A DNA stretch of 64,000 nucleotides from Antedon mediterranea (Eukaryota; Echinodermata; Crinoidea; Comatulida; Antedonidae): the NCBI RefSeq assembly GCF_964355755.1, contig NC_092677.1, positions 4,841,001-4,905,000 on the forward strand, written 5' to 3'. How positions within the stretch are numbered: position 1 is the first letter of the stretch; each line of letters opens with the position of its first letter. The position numbers and the translations under genes are program-made. Positions 17,256 to 46,420 of this stretch are shown here, one piece after another. Under the pieces are notes generated by a model. That model worked only from the letters and a program-made list of their open reading frames with translations, was not told the origin of the DNA and did not search any database.

Positions 17256-20200
17256 TTTTTTGTCTTTCTATTTATCATTTCAAAAACAGGTAAGTTTCTT
17301 TTAAATTATGCCCTGATGCCCTCTTCTCTTACAGGAATTAGATTAGTTCTTTCTCTTATTGTAATATTTACTGTATACAACAAACATTCTAACAGATAGT
17401 TTGGTTTTTAAATATTAGTTTTTAATTTAATAGAGATGTCCCTATCAAATTTGACTTGAGTAAACATTATTTATGGCAGCCAAAATGTGTATGCTTTATA
17501 GTGTCCATCAACAGCCCAGTAATTTTTAAAAAGTAAGAACTTGTGAATTCATGCCTAGTTGAGTCCACAAACATACTAAATGAATCTAATATGCCCGGTT
17601 TTCTTGAAATACTAGGCCCGATTGTTCTTTTGGCTGGCAATCCAGTATTCTTATTTTTAAGACATTACTCAAAATTTAATGTGTCTTAATTTTCAAAAGC
17701 ATATGGTCAATTTGTGACAATATCTGACCAGACAGCCAAGGAAGGTGATACTGAAGTGGTGATAACTTGTGATTATTCACAATTTACTTCTACTACTGAT
17801 TCAATACAATGGGATGAACTAGATGAAGATGAAGCAGTTATTACTCCTGGTTTTGTTAATGATAAGAAGTTAGACAGTGGTCGTTTTAGATTGAACATAA
17901 CACTTGGTAGAGCTAACTTGGTGATGTCACACCCAATGAGAAATGATTCTCAACGAAGATTTCAGTGTCATATACGAGCATCAAATGGAGATATTGAAAC
18001 ATCAAATCCCTCTATTCTAACTGTATATTGTGAGTAAATGACTAAATTTCAATATCATTATTATTCTATACTTATACTAGGTACGGTAACCCATTTCTTT
18101 TGTGTCTGGACTTAAACAAGTTTTCTTTACCTAAACAAATCTTTCATTAATCAGATGTGGATTTAGCTTTTTATTATTTTATTTATAAATAGAATTATTT
18201 TGATCCCTGTTTCAAAAAACATGATTTCTTTCAAAAAACATAAATATTATTGGTGTCCCTTATTTTTAGCTTTGATTTTACACCTTCATTTACTTACAGC
18301 TACAGACTACTATGAAACGCCGTTTACGCAACTTCTATGATATGAATTTTATGACGCGATATGTGAATGAAATGCATCGATATGAATTGAATGGCGCGAA
18401 TTGAATGAAATGTTTTGAATTGAATGCTTTGAATTAAAATTTCAAAATATTTCATTCAAAACATTTCATTCAAAACTTTTTATTCAAAACATTCAATTCA
18501 AACCATTTTATTCAAAACATTTCATTCAAAACCGTCATTAAATTCAAAACATTTCATTCATATCGCGCCATTCAATTCATATCGATGCATTTCATTCACA
18601 TATCGCGTCATAAAATTCATACCATCGAAATGTTGCGTAAACGGCGTTCCATAGACTTATACTGATAATTTTATGTTTAAAGTGATTTAACGTTTGTGAT
18701 GTATGTTTTGTCCCATGTTTTCCCAGACATAGATCAACCACTTCTTAAGCCTCATCAAGTACTGTCTACAAAGGTCAATCAGTGACCTTCACCTGTAGTA
18801 AACCTAATGGTGATCCTATTCCTCACATTACTTGGTATAAAGATGGACAGACAGTCAACACCGACAGCCTTTCTAGATATGAGATTACAAATAGCAGTAC
18901 AGAGTCAGTCTTTAAGATTAAATCAGCTACTAAAGAAGATGATGGAAGATATACATGTAAAGCAGAAAGTGATCAGTTTAAAGGAGAAGATGCTAAAACA
19001 AGTGAAGGAAGATTGGTTGTATATTGTATGTAAACGTTTTATAACATAACTAATCTATGTATAGTAATTGTAAATTAATATCATTTCCTTTATTTAGTTA
19101 GCCAACAAAAATAAATAGAGAACATGTCTGGAAAAAAAAAATATAAATATATAAAAAACAGTATTACAATAGGACTCTTAATCTGAATTTGGAGATAAAA
19201 GTGTACAGGAAAGAAAGGACTGCAGAATCTTTTAACAAATAATGGTAATGAATTAGTTGGGTATCTTTTTTTTTTAGATGTTGATGTCAAATTTACATCT
19301 AGATATGGTATTGCAACCTGTACAGCAGAGGGCCATCCAAAGCCATCATCAGTATTGATATTACAAGATGGAGAAGTGGTTAAGAAAGGAGAAAATACAT
19401 CAACTATAGAAATAGAAGATGATGAGATATGTCAATCAAATCTTACATGCTATACAGAGAATGGAAAGCTTAACGAAACAACAACACTAGAGTGTAATGC
19501 AGGTATATGTACCATATTTCATAGAATCAAAGATATTGTGTTGCATGTTTTGTTTTTTGTTTTTGTTTCAGTTTAAATGCTATGAGTGAAGACATGTTGA
19601 TTAAGATCGAAACCGATATCTAATACCAGATATATTTGTGTTTATGGTTATATCAGGCCAATTGTCAGATATTTAAAAAATTAGGTTTAAGAACAATTTG
19701 CAGTGCTTTTATAGAAATGTATTTTAATTATATCTTCGTAATTTAATTTTATATTTTCATACCACACTACATACACACAATTCAAATACTCTTGTATAAC
19801 AATTTTGTACATGACTATTATTATTCAAAACAAACAATTAATTTCAGGTTTGTCAGTGTTTTTTTATAGGTACACCAAAACAAGTATGTGTCTAATCAAC
19901 GAATATGATTACATCCACCATCATGTCTTAAAAAAACTAAAGTCAAATAGTTATAGATTTTAAAGTTGTTTCAAGCAATAATTTTCTTTCTCAGAAATTG
20001 TATTGTTTTGACCATTCTTATAGTTTTGTTCATGGTTAATGGAAATGATAACTATTTGTTATTAGGTGGACGAATGCTGTACATCATTCTGATTGTTGTG
20101 ATTGTTGTGATTGTTGTGATTGGGCTGGTTTGTCTGTTCATATATTTAGTGCTTCTTGTTTGTAAGTAAAGAATCTTATTTCTGAATTATTACTTTTTAT

Positions 20201-23200
20201 GTTCCATTTCAATAGTATTTCACAAATTGTATTACCATTTGAAGTGTATTTCCGTGTAATAAATAGCTGCAGGGCCTACTACTTTTATTAGTGTTTCCTT
20301 TTGAAGACGCGAGGTTTCTACCCCAAGTGACTGAGGCTAAATAAGGTATTTTTAATAGGTTTAGGAAAAATATAAAAAACATTTTTATGACTGTAACTTT
20401 CGGCAATTGTTGGTTTTATTGTTATGTGAAATGTTTTGGCCTTCCGAAAAATTGCATTTTGTTTTTAACCTAGGTCAAAGGTCAAATGTTTAAAAAGTGC
20501 AATTCAGTGAACCCAAACGTCAACCGGTACATACATACGGGCGTCGCGTCCCGGGACAGTAAATACCCTGTATGGGATACGGGCCACTTATGTGCGATTT
20601 TAGGATTTTTTATGATTGATAAAAGATTTTTAAACATTTTTTTATTGACACTTTGTGAAAATTTAAGTTACTGTATATCAAGTGCAAACTTTCTATTGAA
20701 ACTTTCTGTGGATTAAAAATGGCATGTTTTACACAAAGTTACGCGCGCACATGCAAAATGCGCCATATTAATTGCTAATCAACTTTCTACGCAAATCGTG
20801 ACATTTTACGCATGTCAACAATTCCCACGCGCGCGAATTATTTATGCGTACGGTGAGCACGGAGTATGAAAAACACGTTTTTTTCCTCTTGAATTTTGAT
20901 ATTCAAGCATTTCCTAGTCATTTTAGAACAAATTGAGATCATTTAAACTTTAAATTAAGCCATAAAAATACGTTGGATTAGACAATTTGTGTGCATTTTA
21001 GTTTAAAGAGTTACATCAAAATCATGCCTATTTTGAATTTATTATAGCTCCTCGGGATTAACCGTGACCCCCATTTTTTTTCATAATATGATCGAAAGTG
21101 GATAAGTTGTTGATATGAATCCATTTAAAATGTTTGCCTCTCGAATGTGGTGACATCATCGTATGGCCTTCCAAATATAAAATGAGATAATTTTTTTTTA
21201 TTATTTAACCGGTCAAAGTTGTAATGAGGTATCCTGTTGTGAATTGTTTACACAAACACAGGGTCCTTGTAACAGTAGTACAGTTTCTAGGTGGCCTTGA
21301 ACCACTGGATAAGGAGTCATAAATCATCAAAATTGGTGATTAAGAGCATTTATTACATCCCAGTGAGGCTCTCCTCATCAGGGTATGACTGGAAATTTAT
21401 CAAGGGACTTGTACACGTAATGTAGCTCATCACATTTTCTTGCTCAATCAATTTTAATTTTGATGTCATTATGTCAAAAAATTTCAATAACGTGGGTCAA
21501 TTATTTTCATCCTTACAGTAAATTTCAATGTGTTTTAGTTCGTCACTCTCATGGTTAAAATGTATTATCAAAGCCAATTGAAGTAAAAAAAGTCGGATTT
21601 TCATCTTTTGCGTATAGTATATCACATTTAAAAGAGTGCGCATCTATTGTCTATTTGTCAACATTATTTCTCCAACATGGTTATATGTTGTTTCTCAGAT
21701 TATTTTCTTCCAAAATTGTAATCTTCGTGTTTCTTTTTTGATGACGTGATCATGTTAAAAATTAGAATTAAAGCAGGTTTTCGTAATTTTCACATATGTA
21801 CTAAACTGTAGGTATTTATTCTTTCCTTAGCATTATTTTGTCTGTCAATTATTTTGAGATCAATTTCATCTAGCTAAGTTAATTTTTCAGAGTATATTCC
21901 TTATGGCCAGGAATCGATGTGATTATCTTTTCATGTTGCAGTGCGCAATCAAAAATTGAACGAAATCACGTTTGTAATCATATACCTTCATACAAGCATG
22001 TATCATAATTAAATCAAATTTGGTACTCATAGGTTTCAGGTAATATAGATAGATTATTACATACCGCAATGAATCATCATTTTTTACTGATGATATCTTT
22101 AACAAGTTTGTTAATGATGCACTGTCAAAGTATACACTTTCAACTTTATATATGAACATTGTAAAGAAGGAGGTTAATGATTTTGTTTGATTGTCGAAAT
22201 TAAATGTTTTGAATTTAATATGCAATTAATGGTAACTTATGCGGAGGGATCTTTGATTGGGTTGTTTTATTCAAGTGTATGGCTTAATGTGCAGTGATAC
22301 CGGCTATTGTATTTGGGTTACCAATTACCTATCTTTCATATATTATAAATAATTAAAGATCTGACAAAATCAATCAATATATTTTAAAAATCAATTATCT
22401 GTATTTAAATCAATGCATTTAACCCTACAGTATAATTCGTCTAGTTATATTTTTGTGTTTATATGTGAAATAGTAAGGTGTATGAATATTATTATTCAAA
22501 TTCAATTTTAATTTATATCTTAGGTTTTTTTTTAGACAATTGAGTTAGGTTTCTTTTGTCAAACATTTTACCTAAATGCCATTATTTTGTAATTTTATAA
22601 CAATAGATAAATATTGTTTACCATCCTATATGAGATATGAGATAATTATTCAATTTTAATCAAATCATTTTTATTTCATAAGACCGCAATAAAAACCAAC
22701 TGAATACATGCAGGTGAGTTTATTTGCATACTCTATTTTGATTAAATTGAGTACATCATTATGACACTTGTAATTAAACATTGAATTGATGATATAAATA
22801 TGGTGGTATATCAATGACCAAAAGTTAAAAGAAACATTTGTTTGTGTTAACTACAGAAGTGGAGAAGATGCATGTGATGGTCCAAGTTCACCAAACCAGG
22901 TTGGCTATAATGAAGAACAAGGTAAACTTTGACATTATTCTGTATACTTTCAATGTCAACATGAGAATGCATTCAAACAATCAAAACCCACTTGTGCTGT
23001 TATTTTTGGCTTATTAAGTGTACTATATTTTTTAATTTGTCTTTTATTAATGAGGGAAGACTGTGTTTTATTGAGCCAATTATTTTACTATTATTGGAAG
23101 TAGGCCTACTGTCACACAGCCGCAATTACGACTCTTTCGGACATGTAATATCTGGTAACCACCGGTAAACAACGGTAAATAGCCACAACTGTACACATAT

Positions 23201-26200
23201 AAATGTAAAAAGTAAATTTAATAATAGTCTTTGACAAACAATTCTTCCTTTATAATCCAAACCACCCCCCCCCCCCCCAAAAAAAAAAAAACCCACAAAA
23301 AAGCCCACCCAATTCTCAAACAATGATACAGTATCCCTATTCCCCACACAATTTATACACTTTCCCAAATTCCCAATCCTTCCAGACAAAATATCAACAA
23401 TCTTCTTATTGTCAAATAAATCCCAGAACCCCCCTTCCAAATACAATATTATCACAAGATGAATAATTAAACAATAATAAATGTCCACAATATCGTTCCT
23501 TCTTGCCTTTTCTCCTACGCTGACACAAAACAAATTCGAAAGATAAAAGTTAAAACGATTCTGCAACTAAACAACTCCCACGCCTCTGCTCCCGTTCTGC
23601 TTGTATTCCCAATTATAATTCTTCTCAAACTGCAACTATTTTCTGACATATAAATAAATAAATGAAATATAAAGTTAAAATGTTTCTTGATGTCTTTCTG
23701 TACTGCCTTATAGTATTACTTCCATAATTATTTCCAACGCACAATTTATTAACTTCATGTATATTACTTTATTTCCTTCCTGCTTCAGCTCTATTTTCTG
23801 CTTCAGCTCTATATCACCATAATTATTTCCAACTCACAATTTGTTAACTTCATGTATATCACCATAGCTATTTCCAACGCACAATTTATTAACTTCATGT
23901 ATATCACTTTATTTCCTTTCTGCTTCAGCTCTATATCACCATAACTATTTCCAACGCACAATTTATTAACTTCATGTATATCACTTTATTTCCTTTCTGC
24001 TTCAGCTCTATATCACCATAATTATTTCCAACTCACAATTTATTAACTTCATAGTATATCACCTAATTTCCTTTCCGCTTCAGCTCTATATCACCATAAT
24101 TCTTTCCAACCCACACTTTATTAACTTCATATGTATCACTTTACTTCCTTTCTGCTTCAACATAACATAGCCCTCCTTCTCTGTCTCCTCTCAATTTTCA
24201 TCTCTCTCTCAACATTCCCTCAATTGCACACACACCACCACCTTATCCTTCTCAACCAATCAGCAACTCACACACCAAGTCAACTCTTACACCTCTCCTC
24301 CAATCAGCAACCTCCACACACTCCTTCTCTGCACACAAACACTCTGCTCCACTGGCTTCAAACAATAGTTTCCTAAAACAAAAGAAAGGTTCAAATAATG
24401 AAAACAAAAGGAAAAGTAAGCATGACTTGCAAAATAAATACAAAACTTATGTCACTTGTGACATTTACTCCCCTCTAAAAGAATAATGTCCCAACATTTT
24501 CTTCAAACCGGAATGGGTCCTAATACTTTGAAACATGTGTTTGTTGTTTGATTGTTGATTGATTTCAATGTGTTATAGTTCGTCACTCTCATGGTTAAAA
24601 TGTATTATCAAAGCCAATTGAAGTAAAAAAGTCGGATTTTCATCTTTTGCGTATAGTATATCACATTTAAAAGAGTGCGCATCTATTGTCTATTTGTCAA
24701 CATTATTTCTCCAACATGGTTATATGTTGTTTCTCAGATTATTTTCTTCCAAAATTGTAATCTTCGTGTTTCTTTTTTGATGACGTGATCATGTTAAAAA
24801 TTAGAATTAAAGCAGGTTTTCGTAATTTTCACATATGTACTAAACTGTAGGTATTTATTTTTTCCTTAGCATTATTTTGTCTGTCAATTATTTTGAGATC
24901 AATTTCATCTAGCTAAGTTAATTTTTCAGAGTATATTCCTTATGGCCAGGAATCGATGTGATTATCTTTTCATGTTGCAGTGCGCAATCAAAAATTGAAC
25001 GAAATCACGTTTGTAATCATATACCTTCATACAAGCATGTATCATAATTAAATCAAATTTGGTACTCATAGGTTTCAGGTAATATAGATAGATTATTACA
25101 TACCGCAATGAATCATCATTTTTTACTGATGATATCTTTAACAAGTTTGTTAATGATGCACTGTCAAAGTATACACTTTCAACTTTATATATGAACATTG
25201 TAAAGAAGGAGGTTAATGATTTTGTTTGATTGTCGAAATTAAATGTTTTGAATTTAATATGCAATTAATGGTAACTTATGCGGAGGGATCTTTGATTGGG
25301 TTGTTTTATTCAAGTGTATGGCTTGATGTGCAGTGATACCGGCTATTGTATTTGGGTTACCAATTACCTATCTTTCATATATTATAAATAATTAAAGATC
25401 TGACAAAATCAATCAATGTATTTTAAAAATCAATTATCTGTATTTAAATCAATGCATTTAACCCTACAGTATAATTCGTCTAGTTATATTTTTGTGTTTA
25501 TATGTGAAATAGTAAGGTGTATGAATATTATTATTCAAATTCAATTTTAATTTATATCTTAGGTTTTTTTTTAGACAATTCAGTTAGGTTTCTTTTGTCA
25601 AACATTTTACCTAAATGCCATTATTTTGTAATTTTATAACAATAGATAAATATTGTTTACCATCCTATATGAGATATGAGATAATTATTCAATTTTAATC
25701 AAATCATTTTTATTTCATAAGACCGCAATAAAAACCAACTGAATACATGCAGGTGAGTTTATTTGCATACTCTATTTTGATTAAATTGAGTACATCATTA
25801 TGACACTTGTAATTAAACATTGAATTGATGATATAAATATGGTGGTATATCAATGACCAAAAGTTAAAAGAAACATTTGTTTGTGTTAACTACAGAAGTG
25901 GAGAAGATGAATGTGATGGTGCACATTTTCCACTTGTAAGCAAATCAAGTTCACCAAACCAGGTTGGCTATAATGATTATTTATGATTTAATTAAAAGTT
26001 TTACACAATTTTACAGGCGTGGTTCTGCACAGCTTCGTATAACCATCGACTTAACTATTGAACGCAAAACAAAACACTGTTGACTGAATGAACGGTCAAC
26101 AATCAAACAATCGACGGTTCCCACAACACGCAAAAAACATTATGTCACTTGTATTTTTACTGGTGGAAAATTACGATTGCCGATTTGCTGGGCAATACAT

Positions 26201-29200
26201 GAGAGTTTAATTTCATTTATGTGCGAGAGTACCATTTCCGACCATAGGGGTGTCATTTACCAAGATTTGCTTCAACGCAGGGGGGGGGGGGTGGGTCTGG
26301 CTGTGGCTCATGTGCTTAGTGCCTGGTCTGACCCCCACCCCTGATTTTTAAACATGCTGATAGTTGTGTTTTTTTGGGTTTCGTAAATATGCTAAAATAC
26401 AGTTTTGTTAATTTTGGGTGTAATTTCTGTGGTCCCCAAATTCTTGTTGAAGCTTATTAATTTAAATAAATTACTTTACTTTTATCCAGTTACTATGCAG
26501 TAACAAAGAACTACAGCATAGAATTAGTGAAAGTGTTTAATAGTTTGAAAACAAGATTCTTTATAAATTCCTTTTTTTTTTCAGAAAAGTTCTGATTGTG
26601 AAGGCAGTACACTTTTACCAGAACACCCAGAAGAACAAGGTAAACTTTGACATTATTCTGTATACTTTCAATGTCAAAATGAGAATGCATTCAAACAATC
26701 AAAACCAACTTGTGCTGTTATTTTTGGCTTATTAAGTGTACTATATTTTTTAATTTGTCTTTTATTAATGAGGGAAGACTGTGTTTTATTGAGCCAATTA
26801 TTTTACTATTATTGGAAGTAGGCCTACTGTCACACAGCCGCAATTACGACTCTTTCGGACATGTAATATCTGGTAACCACCGGTAAACAACGGTAAATAG
26901 CCACAACTGTACACATATAAATGTAAAAAGTAAATTTAATAATAGTCTTTGACAAACAATTCTTCCTTTATAATCCAAACCACCCCCCCCCCCCCCAAAA
27001 AAAAACCCACAAAAAAGCCCACCCAATTCTCAAACAATGATACAGTATCCCTATTCCCCACACAATTTATACACTTTCCCAAATTCCCAATCCTTCCAGA
27101 CAAAATATCAACAATCTTCTTATTGTCAAATAAATCCCAGAACCCCCCTTCCAAATACAATATTATCACAAGATGAATAATTAAACAATAATAAATGTCC
27201 ACAATATCGTTCCTTCTTGCCTTTTCTCCTACGCTGACACAAAACAAATTCGAAAGATAAAAGTTAAAACGATTCTGCAACTAAACAACTCCCACGCCTC
27301 TGCTCCCGTTCTGCTTGTATTCCCAATTATAATTCTTCTCAAACTGCAACTATTTTCTGACATATAAATAAATAAATGAAATATAAAGTTAAAATGTTTC
27401 TTGATGTCTTTCTGTACTGCCTTATAGTATTACTTCCATAATTATTTCCAACGCACAATTTATTAACTTCATGTATAATATTACTTTATTTCCTTCCTGC
27501 TTCAGCTCTATTTTCTGCTTCAGCTCTATATCACCATAATTATTTCCAACTCACAATTTATTAACTTCATGTATATCACCATAGCTATTTCCAACGCACA
27601 ATTTATTAACTTCATGTATATCACTTTATTTCCTTTCTGCTTCAGCTCTATATCACCATAACTATTTCCAACGCACAATTTATTAACTTCATGTATATCA
27701 CTTTATTTCCTTTCTGCTTCAGCTCTATATCACCATAATTATTTCCAACTCACAATTTATTAACTTCATAGTATATCACCTAATTTCCTTTCCGCTTCAG
27801 CTCTATATCACCATAATTCTTTCCAACCCACACTTTATTAACTTCATATGTATCACTTTACTTCCTTTCTGTCTCCTCTCAATTTTCATCTCTCTCTCAA
27901 CATTCCCTCAATTGCACACACACCACCACCTTATCCTTCTCAACCAATCAGCAACTCACACACCAAGTCAACTCTTACACCTCTCCTCCAATCAGCAACC
28001 TCCACACACTCCTTCTCTGCACACAAACACTCTGCTCCACTGGCTTCAAACAATAGTTTCCTAAAACAAAAGAAAGGTTCAAATAATGAAAACAAAAGGA
28101 AAAGTAAGCATGACTTGCAAAATAAATACAAAACTTATGTCACTTGTGACATTTACTCCCCTCTAAAAGAATAATGTCCCAACATTTTCTTCAAACCGGA
28201 ATGGGTCCTAATACTTTGAAACATGTGTTTGTTGTTTGATTGTTGATTGATTTCAATGTGTTATAGTTCGTCACTCTCATGGTTAAAATGTATTATCAAA
28301 GCCAATTGAAGTAAAAAAGTCGGATTTTCATCTTTTGCGTATAGTATATCACATTTAAAAGAGTGCGCATCTATTGTCTATTTGTCAACATTATTTCTCC
28401 AACATGGTTATATGTTGTTTCTCAGATTATTTTCTTCCAAAATTGTAATCTTCGTGTTTCTTTTTTGATGACGTGATCATGTTAAAAATTAGAATTAAAG
28501 CAGGTTTTCGTAATTTTCACATATGTACTAAACTGTAGGTATTTATTCTTTCCTTAGCATTATTTTGTCTGTCAATTATTTTGAGATCAATTTCATCTAG
28601 CTAAGTTAATTTTTCAGAGTATATTCCTTATGGCCAGGAATCGATGTGATTATCTTTTCATGTTGCAGTGCGCAATCAAAAATTGAACGAAATCACGTTT
28701 GTAATCATATACCTTCATACAAGCATGTATCATAATTAAATCAAATTTGGTACTCATAGGTTTCAGGTAATATAGATAGATTATTACATACCGCAATGAA
28801 TCATCATTTTTTACTGATGATATCTTTAACAAGTTTGTTAATGATGCACTGTCAAAGTATACACTTTCAACTTTATATATGAACATTGTAAAGAAGGAGG
28901 TTAATGATTTTGTTTGATTGTCGAAATTAAATGTTTTGAATTTAATATGCAATTAATGGTAACTTATGCGGAGGGATCTTTGATTGGGTTGTTTTATTCA
29001 AGTGTATGGCTTGATGTGCAGTGATACCGGCTATTGTATTTGGGTTACCAATTACCTATCTTTCATTATTATAAATAATTAAAGATCTGACAAAATCAAT
29101 CAATGTATTTTAAAAATCAATTATCTGTATTTAAATCAATGCATTTAACCCTACAGTATAATTCGTCTAGTTATATTTTTGTGTTTATATGTGAAATAGT

Positions 29201-32200
29201 AAGGTGTATGAATATTATTATTCAAATTCAATTTTAATTTATATCTTAGGTTTTTTTTTAGACAATTCAGTTAGGTTTCTTTTGTCAAACATTTTACCTA
29301 AATGCCATTATTTTGTAATTTTATAACAATAGATAAATATTGTTTACCATCCTATATGAGATATGAGATAATTATTCAATTTTAATCAAATCATTTTTAT
29401 TTCATAAGACCGCAATAAAAACCAACTGAATACATGCAGGTGAGTTTATTTGCATACTCTATTTTGATTAAATTGAGTACATCATTATGACACTTGTAAT
29501 TAAACATTGAATTGATGATATAAATATGGTGGTATATCAATGACCAAAAGTTAAAAGAAACATTTGTTTGTGTTAACTACAGAAGTGGAGAAGATGAATG
29601 TGATGGTGCACATTTTCCACTTGTAAGCAAATCAAGTTCACCAAACCAGGTTGGCTATAATGATTATTTATGATTTAATTAAAAGTTTTACACAATTTTA
29701 CAGGCGTGGTTCTGCACAGCTTCGTATAACCATCGACTTAACTATTGAACGCAAAACAAAACACTGTTGACTGAATGAACGGTCAACAATCAAACAATCG
29801 ACGGTTCCCACAACACGCAAAAAACATTATGTCACTTGTATTTTTACTGGTGGAAAATTACGATTGCCGATTTGCTGGGCAATACATGAGAGTTTAATTT
29901 CATTTATGTGCGAGAGTACCATTTCCGACCATAGGGGTGTCATTTACCAAGATTTGCTTCAACGCAGGGGGGGGGGGTCTGGCTGTGGCTCATGTGCTTA
30001 GTGCCTGGTCTGACCCCCACCCCTGATTTTTAAACATGCTGATAGTTGTGTTTTTTTGGGTTTCGTAAATATGCTAAAATACAGTTTTGTTAATTTTGGG
30101 TGTAATTTCTGTGGTCCCCAAATTCTTGTTGAAGCTTATTAATTTAAATAAATTACTTTACTTTTATCCAGTTACTATGCAGTAACAAAGAACTACAGCA
30201 TAGAATTAGTGAAAGTGTTTAATAGTTTGAAAACAAGATTCTTTATAAATTCCTTTTTTTTTTTCAGAAAAGTTCTGATTGTGAAGGCAGTACACTTTTA
30301 CCAGAACACCCAGAAGAACAAGGTAAACTTTGACATTATTCTGTATACTTTCAATGTCAACATGAGAATGCATTCAAACAATCAAAACCAACTTGTGCTG
30401 TTATTTTTGGCTTATTAAGTGTACTATATTTTTTAATTTGTCTTTTATTAATGAGGGAAGACTGTGTTTTATTGAGCCAATTATTTTACTATTATTGGAA
30501 GTAGGCCTACTGTCACACAGCCGCAATTACGACTCTTTCGGACATGTAATATCTGGTAACCACCGGTAAACAACGGTAAATAGCCACAACTGTACACATA
30601 TAAATGTCAAAAGTAAATTTAATAATAGTCTTTGACAAACAATTCTTCCTTTATAATCCAAACCACCCCCCCCCCCAAAAAAAACCCACAAAAAAGCCCA
30701 CCCAATTCTCAAACAATGATACAGTATCCCTATTCCCCACACAATTTATACACTTTCCCAAATTCCCAATCCTTCCAGACAAAATATCAACAATCTTCTT
30801 ATTGTCAAATAAATCCCAGAACCCCCCTTCCAAATACAATATTATCACAAGATGAATAATTAAACAATAATAAATGTCCACAATATCGTTCCTTCTTGCC
30901 TTTTCTCCTACGCTGACACAAAACAAATTCGAAAGATAAAAGTTAAAACGATTCTGCAACTAAACAACTCCCACGCCTCTGCTCCCGTTCTGCTTGTATT
31001 CCCAATTATAATTCTTCTCAAACTGCAACTATTTTCTGACATATAAATAAATAAATGAAATATAAAGTTAAAATGTTTCTTGATGTCTTTCTGTACTGCC
31101 TTATAGTATTACTTCCATAATTATTTCCAACGCACAATTTATTAACTTCATGTATATTACTTTATTTCCTTCCTGCTTCAGCTCTATTTTCTGCTTCAGC
31201 TCTATATCACCATAATTATTTCCAACTCACAATTTATTAACTTCATGTATATCACCATAGCTATTTCCAACGCACAATTTATTAACTTCATGTATATCAC
31301 TTTATTTCCTTTCTGCTTCAGCTCTATATCACCATAACTATTTCCAACGCACAATTTATTAACTTCATGTATATCACTTTATTTCCTTTCTGCTTCAGCT
31401 CTATATCACCATAATTATTTCCAACTCACAATTTATTAACTTCATAGTATATCACCTAATTTCCTTTCCGCTTCAGCTCTATATCACCATAATTCTTTCC
31501 AACCCACACTTTATTAACTTCATATGTATCACTTTACTTCCTTTCTGCTTCAACATAACATAGCCCTCCTTCTCTGTCTCCTCTCAATTTTCATCTCTCT
31601 CTCAACATTCCCTCAATTGCACACATACCACCACCTTATCCTTCTCAACCAATCAGCAACTCACACACCAAGTCAACTCTTACACCTCTCCTCCAATCAG
31701 CAACCTCCACACACTCCTTCTCTGCACACAAACACTCTGCTCCACTGGCTTCAAACAATAGTTTCCTAAAACAAAAGAAAGGTTCAAATAATGAAAACAA
31801 AAGGAAAAGTAAGCATGACTTGCAAAATAAATACAAAACTTATGTCACTTGTGACATTTACTCCCCTCTAAAAGAATAATGTCCCAACATTTTCTTCAAA
31901 CCGGAATGGGTCCTAATACTTTGAAACATGTGTTTGTTGTTTGATTGTTGATTGATTTCAATGTGTTATAGTTCGTCACTCTCATGGTTAAAATGTATTA
32001 TCAAAGCCAATTGAAGTAAAAAAGTCGGATTTTCATCTTTTGCGTATAGTATATCACATTTAAAAGAGTGCGCATCTATTGTCTATTTGTCAACATTATT
32101 TCTCCAACATGGTTATATGTTGTTTCTCAGATTATTTTCTTCCAAAATTGTAATCTTCGTGTTTCTTTTTTGATGACGTGATCATGTTAAAAATTAGAAT

Positions 32201-35200
32201 TAAAGCAGGTTTTCGTAATTTTCACATATGTACTAAACTGTAGGTATTTATTCTTTCCTTAGCATTATTTTGTCTGTCAATTATTTTGAGATCAATTTCA
32301 TCTAGCTAAGTTAATTTTTCAGAGTATATTCCTTATGGCCAGGAATCGATGTGATTATCTTTTCATGTTGCAGTGCGCAATCAAAAATTGAACGAAATCA
32401 CGTTTGTAATCATATACCTTCATACAAGCATGTATCATAATTAAATCAAATTTGGTACTCATAGGTTTCAGGTAATATAGATAGATTATTACATACCGCA
32501 ATGAATCATCATTTTTTACTGATGATATCTTTAACAAGTTTGTTAATGATGCACTGTCAAAGTATACACTTTCAACTTTATATATGAACATTGTAAAGAA
32601 GGAGGTTAATGATTTTGTTTGATTGTCGAAATTAAATGTTTTGAATTTAATATGCAATTAATGGTAACTTATGCGGAGGGATCTTTGATTGGGTTGTTTT
32701 ATTCAAGTGTATGGCTTGATGTGCAGTGATACCGGCTATTGTATTTGGGTTACCAATTACCTATCTTTCATATATTATAAATAATTAAAGATCTGACAAA
32801 ATCAATCAATGTATTTTAAAAATCAATTATCTGTATTTAAATCAATGCATTTAACCCTACAGTATAATTCGTCTAGTTATATTTTTGTGTTTATATGTGA
32901 AATAGTAAGGTGTAGGAATATTATTATTCAAATTCAATTTTAATTTATATCTTAGGTTTTTTTTTAGACAATTGAGTTAGGTTTCTTTTGTCAAACATTT
33001 TACCTAAATGCCATTATTTTGTAATTTTATAACAATAGATAAATATTGTTTACCATCCTATATGAGATATGAGATAATTATTCAATTTTAATCAAATCAT
33101 TTTTATTTCATAAGACCGCAATAAAAACCAACTGAATACATGCAGGTGAGTTTATTTGCATACTCTATTTTGATTAAATTGAGTACATCATTATGACACT
33201 TGTAATTAAACATTGAATTGATGATATAAATATGGTGGTATATCAATGACCAAAAGTTAAAAGAAACATTTGTTTGTGTTAACTACAGAAGTGGAGAAGA
33301 TGAATGTGATGGTGCACATTTTCCACTTGTAAGCAAATCAAGTTCACCAAACCAGGTTGGCTATAATGATTATTTATGATTTAATTAAAAGTTTTACACA
33401 ATTTTACAGGCGTGGTTCTGCACAGCTTCGTATAACCATCGACTTAACTATTGAACGCAAAACAAAACACTGTTGACTGAATGAACGGTCAACAATCAAA
33501 CAATCGACGGTTCCCACAACACGCAAAAAACATTATGTCACTTGTATTTTTACTGGTGGAAAATTACGATTGCCGATTTGCTGGGCAATACATGAGAGTT
33601 TAATTTCATTTATGTGCGAGAGTACCATTTCCGACCATAGGGGTGTCATTTACCAAGATTTGCTTCAACGCAGGGGGGGGGGGGGTCTGGCTGTGGCTCA
33701 TGTGCTTAGTGCCTGGTCTGACCCCCACCCCTGATTTTTAAACATGCTGATAGTTGTGTTTTTTTGGGTTTCGTAAATATGCTAAAATACAGTTTTGTTA
33801 ATTTTGGGTGTAATTTCTGTGGTCCCCAAATTCTTGTTGAAGCTTATTAATTTAAATAAATTACTTTACTTTTATCCAGTTACTATGCAGTAACAAAGAA
33901 CTACAGCATAGAATTAGTGAAAGTGTTTAATAGTTTGAAAACAAGATTCTTTATAAATTCCTTTTTTTTTTCAGAAAAGTTCTGATTGTGAAGGCAGTAC
34001 ACTTTTACCAGAACACCCAGAAGAACAAGGTAAACTTTGACATTATTCTGTATACTTTCAATGTCAACATGAGAATGCATTCAAACAATCAAAACCAACT
34101 TGTGCTGTTATTTTTGGCTTATTAAGTGTACTATATTTTTTAATTTGTCTTTTATTAATGAGGGAAGACTGTGTTTTATTGAGCCAATTATTTTACTATT
34201 ATTGGAAGTAGGCCTACTGTCACACAGCCGCAATTACGACTCTTTCGGACATGTAATATCTGGTAACCACCGGTAAACAACGGTAAATAGCCACAACTGT
34301 ACACATATAAATGTCAAAAGTAAATTTAATAATAGTCTTTGACAAACAATTCTTCCTTTATAATCCAAACCACCCCCCCCCCCCCCCCCAAAAAAACCCA
34401 CAAAAAAGCCCACCCAATTCTCAAACAATGATACAGTATCCCTATTCCCCACACAATTTATACACTTTCCCAAATTCCCAATCCTTCCAGACAAAATATC
34501 AACAATCTTCTTATTGTCAAATAAATCCCAGAACCCCCCTTCCAAATACAATATTATCACAAGATGAATAATTAAACAATAATAAATGTCCACAATATCG
34601 TTCCTTCTTGCCTTTTCTCCTACGCTGACACAAAACAAATTCGAAAGATAAAAGTTAAAACGATTCTGCAACTAAACAACTCCCACGCCTCTGCTCCCGT
34701 TCTGCTTGTATTCCCAATTATAATTCTTCTCAAACTGCAACTATTTTCTGACATATAAATAAATAAATAAAATATAAAGTTAAAATGTTTCTTGATGTCT
34801 TTCTGTACTGCCTTATAGTATTACTTCCATAATTATTTCCAACGCACAATTTATTAACTTCATGTATATTACTTTATTTCCTTCCTGCTTCAGCTCTATT
34901 TTCTGCTTCAGCTCTATATCACCATAATTATTTCCAACTCACAATTTATTAACTTCATGTATATCACCATAGCTATTTCCAACGCACAATTTATTAACTT
35001 CATGTATATCACTTTATTTCCTTTCTGCTTCAGCTCTATATCACCATAACTATTTCCAACGCACAATTTATTAACTTCATGTATATCACTTTATTTCCTT
35101 TCTGCTTCAGCTCTATATCACCATAATTATTTCCAACTCACAATTTATTAACTTCATAGTATATCACCTAATTTCCTTTCCGCTTCAGCTCTATATCACC

Positions 35201-38200
35201 ATAATTCTTTCCAACCCACACTTTATTAACTTCATATGTATCACTTTACTTCCTTTCTGCTTCAACATAACATAGCCCTCCTTCTCTGTCTCCTCTCAAT
35301 TTTCATCTCTCTCTCAACATTCCCTCAATTGCACACATACCACCACCTTATCCTTCTCAACCAATCAGCAACTCACACACCAAGTCAACTCTTACACCTC
35401 TCCTCCAATCAGCAACCTCCACACACTCCTTCTCTGCACACAAACACTCTGCTCCACTGGCTTCAAACAATAGTTTCCTAAAACAAAAGAAAGGTTCAAA
35501 TAATGAAAACAAAAGGAAAAGTAAGCATGACTTGCAAAATAAATACAAAACTTATGTCACTTGTGACATTTACTCCCCTCTAAAAGAATAATGTCCCAAC
35601 ATTTTCTTCAAACCGGAATGGGTCCTAATACTTTGAAACATGTGTTTGTTGTTTGATTGTTGTTTGTGTGTTTCTGTGGTCCTAAGTGTTCTGAATGGTG
35701 GATTCTTAGTGTTAGCTTGAGACCGGGTAACCACAGAACATCCTTCAAGATTTTGCTCTGTCCATGTTGGATCTGGATTTCCTGTTGCTCGTACTCCTGC
35801 AATGTTACCTAATATCAAACCATAAATAGGGTTATCCATACATAGTGCATACGTTTTTCCTGAAAAGAATGGAGTATTAACATTTATTAATGCAACCGGT
35901 AAGTTGCGCAAAAGTGCCATCAATCAACATACATGTTTTCTCTTTACCCGTAAGTTGTTCGGCGGATACAAGTTCTTTCTTCACAAACACCCCACTACAG
36001 CCACTGTCACGAAGAACAGAGACACGGCGTGATCCAACACAACCTGTATAAATGGGCATTTTACTACTTGAATTATTTAGAACCGCTGCCATAATTGGAA
36101 GACAGTGCCCACACTGAAGCGTGACCTTATCACCATCATTATTGATACAACATTGATTTAAAGATTCTGACATTTTCGTAACCATACTAGCCCCCACAAC
36201 GGGAATTTCTTCTTTGGCTTTACAATCGGGTTGGTTTGTACATTTTTGGCAATCAGACTCTTTTTGTAGTAAAGTAGACAACCCCGAGAAACTGTTGGTA
36301 TCCTGTCTACAATTTCTGGCAATATGTCCCGTTTTTAAGCATCGGTAACACTTTGGAGGAGAGTTTCGCTTATACCTAGTTGCAGCTCTGCCGTTTGGCT
36401 CTTTTTGAGGTGAAATAGACAACCCAGCGCGTCTACAATTTCTGGCAATGTGTCCTGTTTTTAAGCATCTGTAACATTTTGGAGGAGGGTTTGGTTTATA
36501 CATAGTTGAGGCTCTGCAATTTCTAGCCAAGTGACCTACACGATGGCATATAAAACAAGTTGGGCTACGGAAACTAGATAGGCTTTGTGATGAAGATGTA
36601 CTTGGAACATTATTAGAGGAAAGTTGAGGAGAATTAGGCTCTTTTTGTTTAAACTCTATTGATTTACCAAATAACCCCCACGGGCTTCCAAATATGGTTC
36701 CGCGATTTCAGTCATCGCTTGTATCGTCTTCGGTTGACGTTCCCTTAGGAACAGAGCTAGATCCTTCCCACACCCATCGGTAAACTGCTCTCGCAGCAAT
36801 AAATCTTTTAACCCCTGAAAGGTTTTTTCCCCCTCTGCTAGGTCAATCCACCTATCCAGATAATTGCTTAACCTTGCAGCAAATTGCGGGCCGCTTTCTC
36901 CGTATTCGGGCTTGGCTGTTCGTAACTTATGTCGAAATCCATCGGCGGTTAACTGAAACCGTTTTAGAAGAGCCAATTTCAACAGTTTGTAATCGTGAGC
37001 TTCAGCTGAAGACAACCTGGAATAAACCTCGAGAGCCTTCCCAGTTAGTAGGGCACTTAAGTTAACCGGCCACTCAATTTCTTTCCACTCCTGACTAGTC
37101 GCATACCGTTCAAACCTTTTCAGATAGGCATCTAGGTCATCTGTTCGGTCATGGAAAGGGGGTAATTTAGGTTTACTGGCCTTAACCCGTGACTCAGGAT
37201 TGGGTAATACTCTACCACCTGGCCGTGCCCGATTCTTTTCTTGCTCTAATTGGATTTCTAACCTTTGCATTTCTATGAGATAGGCCTGATTTTCAGCTTC
37301 TTTCACCCTTTCATTTTCTCTCTCTTTTTCTTCACTTGCTCTTTTTCTCTCTGCTTCGTCCTTCTCTAGTACCTCTCTTCTGTCTCTCTCTTCCTTGTCT
37401 CTGTTTCGCTCTTTTTCTTCTCTCTCCCTGTTTCTTTCTTCTCTCTCTAGTGCTCTCTCTTCTCTCTCTCTGACAGCTTCCCCTCTCTTTTCCACAAACT
37501 CTCTTAATTCCACTCCATCTAACCCCAACGCTTTTCCTGCGTCAACAATTTTAGTGAGATCCATTAAGAAAAAAAATAAATATATATATATATATATATA
37601 TATGTATAAGTATCCAATATAAGTATACAGTATATCAATAATATGGCAAATAGACATTCCAAGAATCACGTACAATTGTTTCATCTACCAATGTTCACGC
37701 TAGGTTACAAATCGCTCCCGGACGAGCCCCCCATAAATGTCACACAGCCGCAATTACGGCTCTTTCGGACATGTAATATCTGGTAACCACCGGTAAACAA
37801 CGGTAAATAGCCACAACTGTACACATATAAATGTAAAAAGTAAATTTAATAATAGTCTTTGACAAACAATTCTTCCTTTATAATCCAACCCCCCCCCCCC
37901 CCAAAAAAAAAAACCCACAAAAAAAAGCCCACCCAATTCTCAAACAATGATACAGTATCCCTATTCCCCACACAATTTATACACTTTCCCAAATTCCCAA
38001 TCCTTCCAGACAAAATATCAACAATCTTCTTATTGTCAAATAAATCCCAGAACCCCCCTTCCAAATACAATATTATCACAAGATGAATAATTAAACAATA
38101 ATAAATGTCCACAATATCGTTCCTTCTTGCCTTTTCTCCTACGCTGACACAATAGTTCGTCACTCCCATGGTTAAAATGTATTATCAAAGCCAATTGAAG

Positions 38201-41200
38201 TAAAAAAGTCGGATTTTCATCTTTTGCGTATAGTATATCACATTTAAAAGAGTGCGCATCTATTGTCTATTTGTCAACATTATTTCTCCAACATGGTTAT
38301 ATGTTGTTTCTCAGATTATTTTCTTCCAAAATTGTAATCTTCGTGTTTCTTTTTTGATGACGTGATCATGTTAAAAATTAGAATTAAAGCAGGTTTTCGT
38401 AATTTTCACATATGTACTAAACTGTAGGTATTTATTCTTTCCTTAGCATTATTTTGTCTGTCAATTATTTTGAGATCAATTTCATCTAGCTAAGTTAATT
38501 TTTCAGAGTATATTCCTTATGGCCAGGAATCGATGTGATTATCTTTTCATGTTGCAGTGCGCAATCAAAAATTGAACGAAATCACGTTTGTAATCATATA
38601 CCTTCATACAAGCATGTATCATAATTAAATCAAATTTGGTACTCATAGGTTTCAGGTAATATAGATAGATTATTACATACCGCAATGAATCATCATTTTT
38701 TACTGATGATATCTTTAACAAGTTTGTTAATGATGCACTGTCAAAGTATACACTTTCAACTTTATATATGAACATTGTAAAGAAGGAGGTTAATGATTTT
38801 GTTTGATTGTCGAAATTAAATGTTTTGAATTTAATATGCAATTAATGGTAACTTATGTGGAGGGATCTTTGATTGTATGGCTTGATGTGCAGTGATACCG
38901 GCTATTGTATTTGGGTTACCAATTACCTATCTTTCATATATTATAAATAATTAAAGATCTGACAAAATCAATCAATATATTTTAAAAATCAATTATCTGT
39001 ATTTAAATCAATGCATTTAACCCTACAGTATAATTCGTCTAGTTATATTTTTGTGTTTATATGTGAAATAGTAAGGTGTATGAATATTATTATTCAAATT
39101 CAATTTAAATTTATATCTTAGGTTTTTTTTTAGACAATTGAGTTAGGTTTCTTTTGTAAAACATTTTACCTAAATGCCATTATTTTGTAATTTTATAACA
39201 ATAGATAAATATTGTTTACCATCCTATATGAGATATGAGATAATTATTCAATTTTAATCAAATCATTTTTATTTCATAAGACCGCAATAAAAACCAACTG
39301 AATACATGCAGGTGAGTTTATTTGCATACTCTATTTTGATTAAATTGAGTACATCATTATGACACTTGTAATTAAACATTGAATTGATGATATAATTATG
39401 GTGGTATATCAATGACCAAAAGTTAAAAGAAACATTTGTTTGTGTTAACTACAGAAGTGGAGAAGATGAATGTGATGGTGCACATTTTCCACTTGTAAGC
39501 AAATCAAGTTCACCAAACCAGGTTGGCTATAATGATTATTTATGATTTAATTAAAAGTTTTACACAATTTTACAGGCGTGGTTCTGCACAGCTTCGTATA
39601 ACCATCGACTTTACTGGTGGAAAATTACGATTGCCGATTTGCTGGGCAATACATGAGAGTTTAATTTCATTTATGTGCGAGAGTACCATTTCCGACCATA
39701 GGGGTGTCAATTACCAAGATTTGCTTCAACGCAGGGGGGGGGGGGGGGTCTGGCTGTGGCTCATGTGCTTAGTGCCTGGTCTGACCCCCACCCCTGATTT
39801 TTAAACATGCTGATAGTTGTGTTTTTTTGGGTTTCGTAAATATGCTAAAATACAGTTTTGTTAATTTTGGGTGTAATTTCTGTGGTCCCCAAATTCTTGT
39901 TGAAGCTTATTAATTTAAATAAATTACTTTACTTTTATCCAGTTACTATGCAGTAACAAAGAACTACAGCATAGAATTAGTGAAAGTGTTTAATAGTTTG
40001 AAAACAAGATTCTTTATAAATTCCTTTTTTTTTTCAGAAAAGTTCTGATTGTGAAGGCAGTACACTTTTACCAGAACACCCAGAAGAACAAGGTAAACTT
40101 TGACATTATTCTGTATACTTTCAATGTCAACATGAGAATGCATTCAAACAATCAAAACAAACTTGTGCTGTTATTTTTGGCTTATTAAGTGTACTATATT
40201 TTTTAATTTGTCTTTTATTAATGAGGGAAGACTGTGTTTTATTGAGCCAATTATTTTACTATTATTGGAAGTAGGCCTACCCTGCAATACACATGATCAC
40301 AGTACCCCATCAAATTGATTTTTTAATTTAAAAGACAAATAGCAACAGTTGTATGTTAATGTGTAGAAAGTTTAAGATAACAGCATATGGGTAGTAAATA
40401 GAATATACTCTGCTCTAAAACTTGCTTTATTTAAAACAATACATTTTTATATTAGCAAAACCAGTTGATTTGATTATTTTTCACTACATTTTCAAGATTT
40501 TTAAATCATTACTCTTACATTTGAATACGATTGTGTAGAAAGTCATGAGTAAAATATAAACATATGTAATATTTTTAAGTTTATGGGTAATATTGCTCTC
40601 AATCAAGGGCATTATGACTACTTTTAAGGGAGGAGTACAGAGCTGTAGGCACAAGGTGAATTTTGCTAAATGAAACCCTTAGATGGCCGGAAATGATACT
40701 TTGCACATAACATTCATGATAAATGGCACTTCTAGTTTGCCGGAAATGCTATTTTAGCGAGCTAGCAATTCAAACAGCAATACGATCCATAGCTTATTTT
40801 GTTTCCGCCGGTAACACATACAGTATGTGACTAAAAATATAGGATATATGAACTTTTGTTCCGGTACAGTAATAAATTCCAATAACTATAATCAATTGAT
40901 CTAGGCCTATATATAAATTGACAAAATTCGGTAAATCATGCGTTACTTCTACAATGTGTACTCGATGGTATATAAAGTTGGTTCGTACTTTCGGTACTGA
41001 CTTTAACCACCTGATGTTTTTTTTGTTTGTTTTTTTGTTATTTTTTTATATTTAGGCAAATTGCCAAGGATAACCATAAGCAAATTCATTCACTATCCTT
41101 CTTAGAGGTGGCAATCCGTTCACGAGACAAACATATACACACGATGCTCTACATAAACAAAGTCTTATTACAAGTCTTTGGGAGTGGAGTTGTAAATTGT

Positions 41201-43187: not shown

Positions 43188-43469
43188 TCATTTTACACTT
43201 TAATAAATATCTATTTGATATTAAAGGCTGGCATAAGAATAAATTACATGGTTGGGTCATTTCTATTAAAGCACTGTAATTAAGGTTACGAGACTGAGTT
43301 TTGGGTTTTTACATACAATAAGGCTTATTCATTAATTTTAAATAGTTTTAATTGCCTTTTATTACCTGAATTTTGTGTGCAAAAAAATAAAAAAGTAAAA
43401 TAAAACTTTCTACATAAGACGCTGTTTATATCATAATAATATAACTACTACTATTTTTTTTTATTACAG

Positions 43470-43570
43470 GTCCAGTTTTAACAATGGAAAAGAATGACCT
43501 GTCTGCTGCCGTAGAAGGAAAGGCTAGAATCCTTTTTATATTATCCTTCACCAATACAAAAACAAATTAA
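43470..43570 (+). CDS. Ig N-terminal half exon (copy 2, orphan)
   Basis: After acceptor TTATTACAG, a phase-1 frame encodes PVLTMEKNDLSAAVEGKARI and then stops within about 14 codons. It is homologous to the exon at 42349, but a one-base difference after GCTAGAAT shifts the frame. It is probably decayed. Confidence 0.35.
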
Positions 43571-43965
43571 GAAATTTATCTTTTACAAACAAATGTGACG
43601 GGCCAATCACGAATGTAGTATAGTTATTTACTGGTTTTTACGGCACTTCCGTTTGTATTGGCTCTGGATTAATGTACAATTGTAGGTTTTCGTGACAATT
43701 TCAAACAATTAAGGGCGTTTTTAAAAAAAACAGAAAAAATTATTCTTAGGTACACAAGGGGTTTTAGGGTTATTAAAATTAACATTTGTGGACCTTGCTA
43801 AAGCCTAGTTTTGAATATTGATGTAGCCCCCCACCTCCTCTTCCATCCAAAGGCGTAAAAGAGTAAATTACACATTTTTTAGCAAAATTATTTTGATTTA
43901 TCCACAATTTTCTTTGAAAGAATTGCTTTTGTTTAAAGAATTATTATATTTGCTTGTTTTTACAG

Positions 43966-44255
43966 AAGGCAGTGATTCTCCTGATGGGTTTTCCAATGAA
44001 AGTGTGAATGATAAATTGTTTCAAAACCCAGATGATGATTCTGCTGCAATATTCAATGTCAAGTGGAAGCAGGATGAAGCAAAGCAGCTGCAGTCATCAT
44101 TGCAGTCGCCTGATCCAAATTCACGCTATCAATGTGTATATGATAGTAAGAACAAGACGCATCTTGAGATCAGAAATGTTAAATCTGAATATGCAAGAGA
44201 ATATATGTGTGAAGTGGAAGTTAAAGAAAGACAGGAAATATACAATTGTACTTGA
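43966..44255 (+). CDS. Chimeric exon: receptor-tail start fused to Ig C-terminal half
   Basis: The exon opens with the same acceptor and EGSDSPDG codons as the terminal exon of gene 2. It then diverges into an Ig-like stretch with VKWKQDE, LEIRNVKSEYAREYMCEVEV, which are the C, E and F strands with the second Cys. The frame stops at 44255. One frame over, the sequence reads TIVLEVSS, which would be the expected G strand, so a small indel is likely. Alternatively a GTACTT donor after 44243 would join it in phase 1 to the sialidase exon at 44438. Whether it is used is unknown. Confidence 0.45.
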
Positions 44256-44437
44256 AGTTAGCAGTTAAAGCTAACAATAGAATATTATGCCTATTTTAAG
44301 ACCCCCTTTGAAATTAAGCTGGAACGATGACTAGTCATTTTACACTTCAATAACATCCATTTGATATTAATGGCTGGCCTAAGAAAAAAATATGACCTCT
44401 CGCCTGTATTTTCATTTTCTCCCCCTTCTTTTTATAG

Positions 44438-46420
44438 GCGATGTGTTTACTGAACAAGTAAATACATACAGGTAAATTGATTTCCATTCAAAATCCTAAT
44501 TATTGTTTTAGTCTATTTTATTTTCAAAAGTCAACATCTAGGTTTGTCGTTTTCTGAATTTAACTTTAAAATAACTTATAAATAAAAATAAGTTATTGAA
44601 TTATCTTGAAATTTTTCTGAAATTTATGCGTCTCTACATTTTTCTTTTTTTAGACACCCTGCAGTAGTCTTCATAAATTTTCATTTTATCATCTTTTGTG
44701 AGGAAAGTAACTCAGATGTAATAATGAGAGGAGGAAAATTAAATTGCAAGAGTTTGATTGAATGGGAAGAACCAAGAGTTATTTTACATGAAAAGGAAAC
44801 AAGGTAATTATATTGAGGTTTGACTTAAGTTGACCAAGCGATTAACATTGTTTGCTGGTTATTATGTTTCATACATTTAGATAAGTAATCAATTATTCAT
44901 TTTGTTTCATTTGCTATTACCAATGACATTAATATCAAAGAACATTTGTAAATTGTATTTAAACAAAATGAGAAAACGAAAAAGTGTACAAAGTTGATTC
45001 TAATAATGTAAACATTTGTTTTTAACAATAATTCTACAAATTTACTATACAGTTTTCAGCATGTAGTACCAATTGTGACAGATAAGAAAAATGGAAAATT
45101 GATTCTAATGTGTGTTAAACAAGATAACACCACAAAAGTAAGGAAGATAATAAGGATGAAATCTGCAGATAATGGAGTCAACTGGACAGAACCAGAAGAT
45201 GTACAATTTGATTTGAAAGGCTTACACATAGATGTTATGAGTTAGTATTAGTTTGTATTAGATTGTTACTTATTGAAATTGACTTGCCATACATGGCTTT
45301 GAATCTGACTAATTCATATTTCACAGACCAAATATTTATTTGTCAATTTGAGAGAGAGAGCTTACAATTGTTTATTTGTTCATTGTTTATTTTCCAGAAA
45401 AATTGTTAGTGATGACAAGTACTAATGATGGTGACACCTGGGATATTGTACCTGCTGTTAAACTACAATATTCTACCTTGGGAGGACACATACAAGTAAG
45501 AAACTTGAACATTCCCAGGGTTTCATTTCTAATTACAACATTTTAGTGCCACTGTGTCATATATAGTAATGTGATTTGTTCATTAGGTTGTTGAATATGC
45601 AAATGATGATGTTTACATCAGCTGTTCATTGGAGAACTGTAAACAGCGTTTCCATGTATATGGGAAGGATGGATGTAAAACATTTGATGTCAAGACTGAG
45701 GATGCACAATTAGAGGCAAATCCAGAGTGCCAGGTATACTCTACAATCATGTTTTATATTTGTTGAAGTTATATTTAATGAATGATCTTGAGTTGGAAAC
45801 TCGGCCCTTTTTGGCTTACTTGAGCATCCACATATAAACAAACTAAACTGTAACAAGTTTTTTTATATGATTTATCATCTTATATGAAATAATAAAATGA
45901 ATAAAGAATATTTCATGAGTTGAAAGATTGAATGCTCTATTGAACTGACATAAACTCATACTCAAATATTCTCCATTCAACAAATATGAAATGCTTACTT
46001 TAACATTATTTAAAGGATGTTTAAATTGCAATTATTTGATGTACTTGTTGGTTTAACTCTATTTGCTTTAATATTAATTTATATGATAATTTTAATGTTA
46101 TTTTGGATTATATTATTATCTAGGGTGGTATTTTACGTTTACCAACAAAGACAAATGAGTTCTACCAAATAGCAATGGCAAGTCATGGAAATGAGACAAA
46201 TAAGGATCTTACACTTTACTTAAGTGAAGATGGCTGTAAAACCTGGTGTCAGTTTTATACACTAGGTGCGGTGAATACAGAAGAATGTGACCTAGCTTAC
46301 TACAGTGTAAAAGAAGGGAAAGAAGAAGCAGAAGGAATAGTGTGTGTTTACAGTTATGGTTCAGATACAGAGGGTTATAATATTGGAATGCAGTTGATTT
46401 CTAACAAAGAAATTATGTAA
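44438..46420 (+). CDS. Sialidase-like (Asp-box) protein
   Basis: This is a six-bladed-propeller sialidase homologue in six in-phase exons: 44438-44471, 44654-44803, 45053-45240, 45398-45495, 45587-45733, 46124-46420 (stop TAA). It covers about 305 aa of sialidase domain, with more coding sequence upstream because the first exon enters in phase 1. The family's RIP motif appears as YRHPAVVF, split by an intron. Asp boxes or close variants are SADNGVNW, STNDGDTW, GKDGCKTF and SEDGCKTW. By eye against animal cytosolic sialidases, the nucleophile Tyr of AYSDL aligns with Glu in TEECDL, and the third triad Arg aligns with Asn in TNKDL. The domain may therefore bind glycans without cleaving them. 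Ig half-exons lie just upstream, so the full protein may be Ig plus sialidase. No transmembrane segment is seen. An enzyme function is not supported. Confidence 0.8.

Follow-up and report, generated by a model that had tools for sequence, protein, structure and literature searches.

The described systems closest to the locus reported here are the KIV-2 repeat of human LPA, the nearest genomic kind, and the chicken BG genes, the nearest receptor kind. LPA KIV-2, which belongs to a plasma protein, is a multi-exon coding variable number tandem repeat (VNTR). Chicken BG genes encode membrane proteins of the immunoglobulin superfamily (IgSF) in a multigene cluster, and their tails are described as being composed of numerous small exons, of which each gene has 13 to 36; the exon number of BG1 is implied to matter for virus resistance (PMC4046983). 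Another account reports that BG tail variation appears to be selected and that intron read-through truncates tails (PMC5938342). Here, we analyzed a stretch of 64,000 nucleotides from the crinoid Antedon mediterranea (hereafter, the window; C8:4841001-4905000, where C8 is contig NC_092677.1), in which an IgSF receptor gene, gene 2, carries five tandem copies of a block of small, putatively cytoplasmic exons.

The gene 2 array resembles LPA KIV-2 in being a multi-exon coding repeat but differs in that it lies behind a membrane helix, with units of three small exons and a sorting-type motif; copy-number variation is known for KIV-2, whereas the gene 2 array is known here from one assembly. Like the BG genes, gene 2 is an IgSF member of a multigene cluster with a tail made from small exons. 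However, each BG tail exon is a single 21- or 24-nt heptad (coiled-coil), with many sequence groups, whereas the gene 2 unit is a three-exon block present in near-identical copies, with a di-leucine motif and with spacers made of an element bearing long terminal repeats (LTRs). The many single 21/24-nt exons typical of BG are thus not what the array (31+67+55 nt) contains. A limited literature search turned up no invertebrate tail-cassette array, which is a weak statement, and nothing on point for repeated di-leucine motifs as judged by titles and the start of abstracts.

Self-comparison of the window, which has no N, delimited five tandem units that start at 21522, 24562, 28250, 31955, and 38153 and together span 21522-40280, all on the forward strand. 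Units 2 (24562-26827), 3 (28250-30510), 4 (31955-34217), and 5 (38153-40280) each contain exon a (25722-25752, 29409-29439, 33115-33145, and 39281-39311, respectively), exon b (25896-25962, 29583-29649, 33289-33355, and 39455-39521), and exon c (26585-26639, 30268-30322, 33975-34029, and 40038-40092). Unit 1 (21522-23109) contains exon a (22683-22713) and no exon c; owing to two deletions, its 65-nt exon b' (22857-22921) is an in-frame fusion of part of b, some intron sequence, and the end of c. Exon a (31 nt) has one sequence throughout the five units, and the four units with exons b (67 nt) and c (55 nt) show no differences in either. The cassette therefore totals 31+65 = 96 nt in unit 1 and 31+67+55 = 153 nt in units 2 to 5, as the sequence-only reading of this DNA had stated along with the fivefold array itself. 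All 14 cassette exons, b' included, keep canonical GT-AG sites and frame, with phases 1 to 2 for a, 2 to 0 for b, 0 to 1 for c, and 2 to 1 for b', so that each cassette is entered and left in phase 1. The near identity of the units was also borne out: units 2 to 4 differ pairwise at 2 to 4 of ∼2,260 aligned sites, and unit 5 differs from them at 9 to 11 of ∼2,125 sites and misses ∼100 bp between b and c. Unit 1 showed 24 to 27 differences from the others among ∼1,587 sites in global alignment, much of this adjoining its deletions, and 99.5% identity over its BLAST match (21522-22881). With head-to-tail kilobase-sized units that each hold whole exons in frame, the array has the form of a coding multi-exon VNTR of the KIV-2 type.

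Upstream of the array, gene 2 was read on the forward strand from exon D1 onward. It comprises D1 (17700-18029, exit phase 1, Ig-like by eye, supported by its open reading frame [ORF], splice sites, and matches to the D1 exon of a sister gene), D2 (18727-19025), D3 (19278-19502, Ig-like by eye), and a 96-nt transmembrane (TM) exon read by eye (20066-20161), which leaves phase 1 with a base T. A candidate terminal exon of 134 nt (43054-43187) follows the array, accepts phase 1, starts with AA, and ends with TAG. In a hand-joined reading of gene 2, Pfam Ig_3 matched over D2 (5e-21), and D1 and D3 were unmatched; the ectodomain of the sister gene matched Dscam, Robo, and others in the PDB at a generic Ig level. 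Gene 2 has the layout of an IgSF receptor, with Ig domains followed by a membrane helix. We searched the genome (354 Mb in 18 contigs) with the sister-gene D1 exon and obtained 51 matches, itself and the D1 of gene 2 included. As 47 of them crowd on C8 between 4.70 and 5.80 Mb (the others being two on C3, one on C4, and one elsewhere on C8), the window lies within a large receptor cluster. By eye, an outer phase of 1 is an apparent rule for exons of this receptor family and is not special to the cassettes.

The phases of the cassettes had led to the claim that any number of them, from zero to five, could be spliced in without breaking the frame. We joined the TM exon, each of the 32 possible cassette subsets, and the terminal exon. 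The joins confirmed the phase 1 compatibility of the TM exon, the cassettes, and the terminal exon, and 31 of the 32 subsets left the frame open. The claim failed for the empty subset, in which the T of the TM exon and the AA of the terminal exon form a TAA stop straight behind the membrane helix, a consequence that had been hidden because phase alone was considered. The zero-cassette product is thus predicted to be a tailless receptor.

That the array varies a signaling tail, as had been proposed, was not supported in that form. The cassettes of units 2 to 5 encode no tyrosine inside; tyrosines are found in unit 1 (one, VGYNEEQ), at the TM-cassette junction (codon TAC), and in the candidate terminal exon (two, VYVDI and DYIVN), and these leave room for some tyrosine signaling. 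Acidic di-leucine signals of the form [DE]xxxL[LI], as in CD3 gamma and CD4, are sorting signals. Exon c encodes EGSTLL in four of the five units (2 to 5), which fits this motif and from which adaptor binding is predicted, so the predicted tail holds up to four di-leucine copies in a row. With this motif in exon c and no inner tyrosine in cassettes 2 to 5, sorting is a better guess than tyrosine signaling.

Whole-genome DNA searches with the a/b block and the c block found, besides the array, two complete places, L003 (C8:5080190) and L001 (C8:5350768), about 0.2 and 0.5 Mb from the array, respectively; the a/b search also gave two weak b-only matches, and no other repeated a/b or c place was found. 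Both L001 and L003 have a, b, and c once each, with the same GT-AG sites and with length differences that are multiples of three. At L001, D1, D2, and D3 precede the tail exons; at L003, no D1 or TM exon was found on its own strand in the stretch fetched. Exon a starts with basic residues in several relatives, which is the ground for placing it on the cytoplasmic side. The anatomy and these single-copy places support the earlier view that the tail, and not the ectodomain, is what is repeated. Separately, exon b contains an in-frame GTAAGC (25936, and at the same place in units 3 to 5) that by eye makes a strong-looking alternative donor; its use would shorten the exon to 40 nt and the cassette to 126 nt. 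This form (CTT|GTAAGC), which is also in frame and possible, was set aside as the main one because a different donor, |GTTGGC, preceded by in-frame coding sequence, is common to L001 and L003.

We then considered how widely the motif occurs. An exon-c scan requiring [CT]AG acceptors found only the array, L001, and L003; it was widened to any AG and then freed of any splice-site demand. This last search covered the window and 30 fetched stretches (234 kb; 20 chosen beside D1 matches), and its query was built from the residues on either side of the motif in five known copies, the six positions of the motif itself being masked. With the best unrelated match at a score of 30, 11 places ranked higher, and nine of them read [DE]xxxL[LI] where the query was masked (8 sequences of 10 once L011 and L012, which are identical there, are counted as one). 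Five of the 11 are the query sequences themselves, and the motif is present in 5 of the 6 newly found places. Versions in the family include EDSKLL, EDSELL, EGSELL, EESQLI, EDTELL, and EDIKLL. Among the best 32 of 193,218 matches, gene 2 alone shows multiple copies of exon c. Two exon-c-like places, L009 (EESQLL) and L025 (EYSQLV), scored within noise and were excluded from the 11.

The units are separated by LTR-element sequence on the minus strand. Spacer 1 (23110-24561) consists of one LTR (∼415 bp) and ∼1 kb of element interior, and spacers 2 (26828-28249) and 3 (30511-31954) are like it. Spacer 4 (34218-38152) comprises an LTR (34218-34633), an interior with a minus-strand ORF that we named gag-like by eye (in Pfam, it gave only a weak SCAN match under the cutoff), and a second LTR (37738-38152). 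The LTR belongs to a dispersed family, with 35 further places plus 5 in the array (40 scored of 67 candidates). We ruled out that the unit itself is a transposon, since its exons occur at the DNA level only in the array and two other places; dispersed repeats do account for parts of its left 900 bp (39 of 2,213 candidates scored). Spacers 1 to 3 differ from each other at 2 or 3 of ∼1,420 positions, and spacer 4 differs from them by 3 to 8. By eye, both ends of the spacer 4 element touch the duplicated segment, and there is no target-site duplication. Between the two LTRs of spacer 4, 6 (BLAST) to 14 (MAFFT) of ∼415 positions differ, so the element seems to predate the spread of the units. We infer, as the simplest history, that an S-element-S duplication came first and that the 3.7-kb composite was then multiplied by unequal crossing-over.

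We tentatively favor, at slightly less than even confidence, the view of the array as a coding VNTR of recent origin, composed of multi-exon units that multiply a sorting module in the cytoplasmic region of an IgSF receptor. An ancestral three-exon tail block, with a as the juxtamembrane part, b as an acidic linker, and c as the di-leucine exon, would have been duplicated together with a piece of an LTR element and spread by unequal crossing-over. Splicing of the cassettes into the mRNA would yield a tail with one to four di-leucine motifs, to which unit 1, having presumably lost exon c, would add a 32-amino-acid stretch devoid of di-leucine. More cassettes might give higher avidity for clathrin adaptors and thereby raise surface turnover, and skipping of all cassettes would produce a receptor ending right after the membrane helix.

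Several observations weigh against this proposal. The di-leucine is lost at L003 (ETSPLT) and L026 (EDEEHL), L011 and L012 have no GT[AG] donor close behind exon c, and exon a of L001 (ENQPNAS) has no basic residues after the helix. The conservation of the di-leucine may reflect descent alone, and there is no sign of diversification, because the exons of units 2 to 5 are identical. Furthermore, gene 2 may not be intact. In paralogue alignment, D2 is 1 nt short near 18749: five of the five paralogue exons that cover the site have the base (two more aligned exons stop short), and canonical D2 splicing, when translated, meets a stop before the membrane. Exons d and e, which follow c in relatives at eight and four loci, respectively, were not found on the forward strand in 40281-47000 at the mismatch limits used, and e-like strings appeared there only at 11 of 28 mismatches. 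In relatives, further Ig exons come after e on the same strand. The candidate terminal exon has no protein match in the genome except itself and resembles the Ig exon starting at 43967 in shortened form. Indeed, its DNA has two partial copies in the window (43933-43988 and 44322-44385); its first 23 nt with the preceding 33 nt of intron, and likewise its last 13 nt with the sequence behind, match the region of that Ig exon, and its middle 45 nt are 78% identical to an Ig exon of L006 (E = 6e-5).

These lesions make a decaying receptor a serious contender, which we rate as well within the plausible range but short of an even chance. Gene 2 would then be a pseudogene or nearly so, and the array a neutral by-product of LTR-element-associated tandem duplication in a large intron, with cassettes rarely or never spliced. 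The dispersed repeats that make up much of the left part of the unit are in line with such an origin. The earlier placement of the array in one receptor gene accordingly stands only in part: D1 to D3 and the TM exon do precede it, but one working gene is doubtful because canonical D2 splicing gives a stop. In contrast, D1, D3, and the TM exon are open, all cassette exons have retained their sites and frame, and the D2 lesion can be bypassed in two ways that stay open to the membrane, by an acceptor 23 nt downstream (CTTCTTAAG|CC; D2 form 18750-19025) or by skipping D2. Using eight D1 and four D3 exons caught by sequence pattern, which are small samples, we obtained a median dN/dS of 0.75 for the D1 of gene 2 (range 0.41 to 0.75 over the eight genes) and of 0.46 for its D3 (0.60 to 0.82 in three others). 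Within these small samples, D1 and D3 of gene 2 evolve no differently from those of relatives.

A second case of tail repetition was found in L028 (C8:5303761-5311760), a minus-strand relative, in which a tail-like exon (L028 4310-4758, minus strand) is made of ten tandem 45-nt units, 96% alike. They code for 15-amino-acid repeats of the ECLDDEGYVKPMSKT and DDEGYVKPMSKTECL type, and YVKP occurs ten times in a single open frame. That this exon is a tail is suggested by its position after D1 and by its resemblance to other C-terminal exons. We take YVKP to be a pYxxP motif of the Crk-SH2 type, comparable to p130Cas. As gene 2 repeats exons and L028 repeats 15-amino-acid units within one exon, the cluster seems to have acquired repeated tails on at least two occasions, by different means. 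Invertebrate-type recognition receptors are usually searched for diversity in their ectodomains; in this cluster, two genes multiply tail modules. If used, these repeats would supply each receptor with sorting or docking motifs in naturally graded doses, predicting that copy number goes with surface turnover. L028 also has two copies of a tail-like exon on its minus strand, at 4141 and 5751, ∼1.6 kb apart, that read ERGEIKMERR(N/S)PEYEGLISASYLEVY(A/D)EPNDAVISS.

A bolder version of the sorting-module proposal, which we consider unlikely, is that of a copy-number rheostat. A polymorphic array would set the number of endocytic di-leucines, the T|AA junction formed when all cassettes are skipped would act as a switch to a tailless form, and tail valency, besides the diversity of the ectodomain, would be fast evolving in this cluster, with the YVKP repeats of L028 as candidate phosphotyrosine sites.

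An artefact of the assembly, in which near-identical 3.7-kb units were miscounted or two haplotypes were joined, is improbable to our mind. Units 2, 3, and 4, being so few sites apart, are what such an error could produce; against it, the sequence is gapless, and unit 1 (two deletions, no c), unit 5 (∼100 bp missing between b and c, and preceded by an LTR-interior-LTR arrangement), and the outer flanks each stand out from the rest, so at least three units are inferred. Use of the cassettes as mutually exclusive exons, one per mRNA, would suit their equal outer phase and near-identical sequence but is highly improbable, since a choice among the identical exons of units 2 to 5 would give identical products.

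Elsewhere in the cluster and the window, other arrangements were noted. L004 has four tandem V-like Ig exons, ∼80% alike (3981-5998). By eye, an exon at 58739-59001 of the window holds the front half of an Ig domain and a Cys-rich hydrophobic stretch and precedes an exon a; a back half is seen at ∼62776-62906, behind an exon e. The tail exons there stand between two Ig-domain halves, an order also seen in L001 and L005/L006; neither half was spotted in gene 2. A search of the window against Rfam at gathering thresholds gave no known structured RNA. Two sets of similar exons lie at 144-1969 and 44430-46420; one exon was scanned and had no Pfam match, and by eye they are presumably sialidase-like. 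An 83-bp minisatellite of eight copies occupies 3610-4287, and the minus strand of L030 carries a 712-amino-acid open frame (614-2752) that resembles a LINE-type reverse transcriptase by eye.

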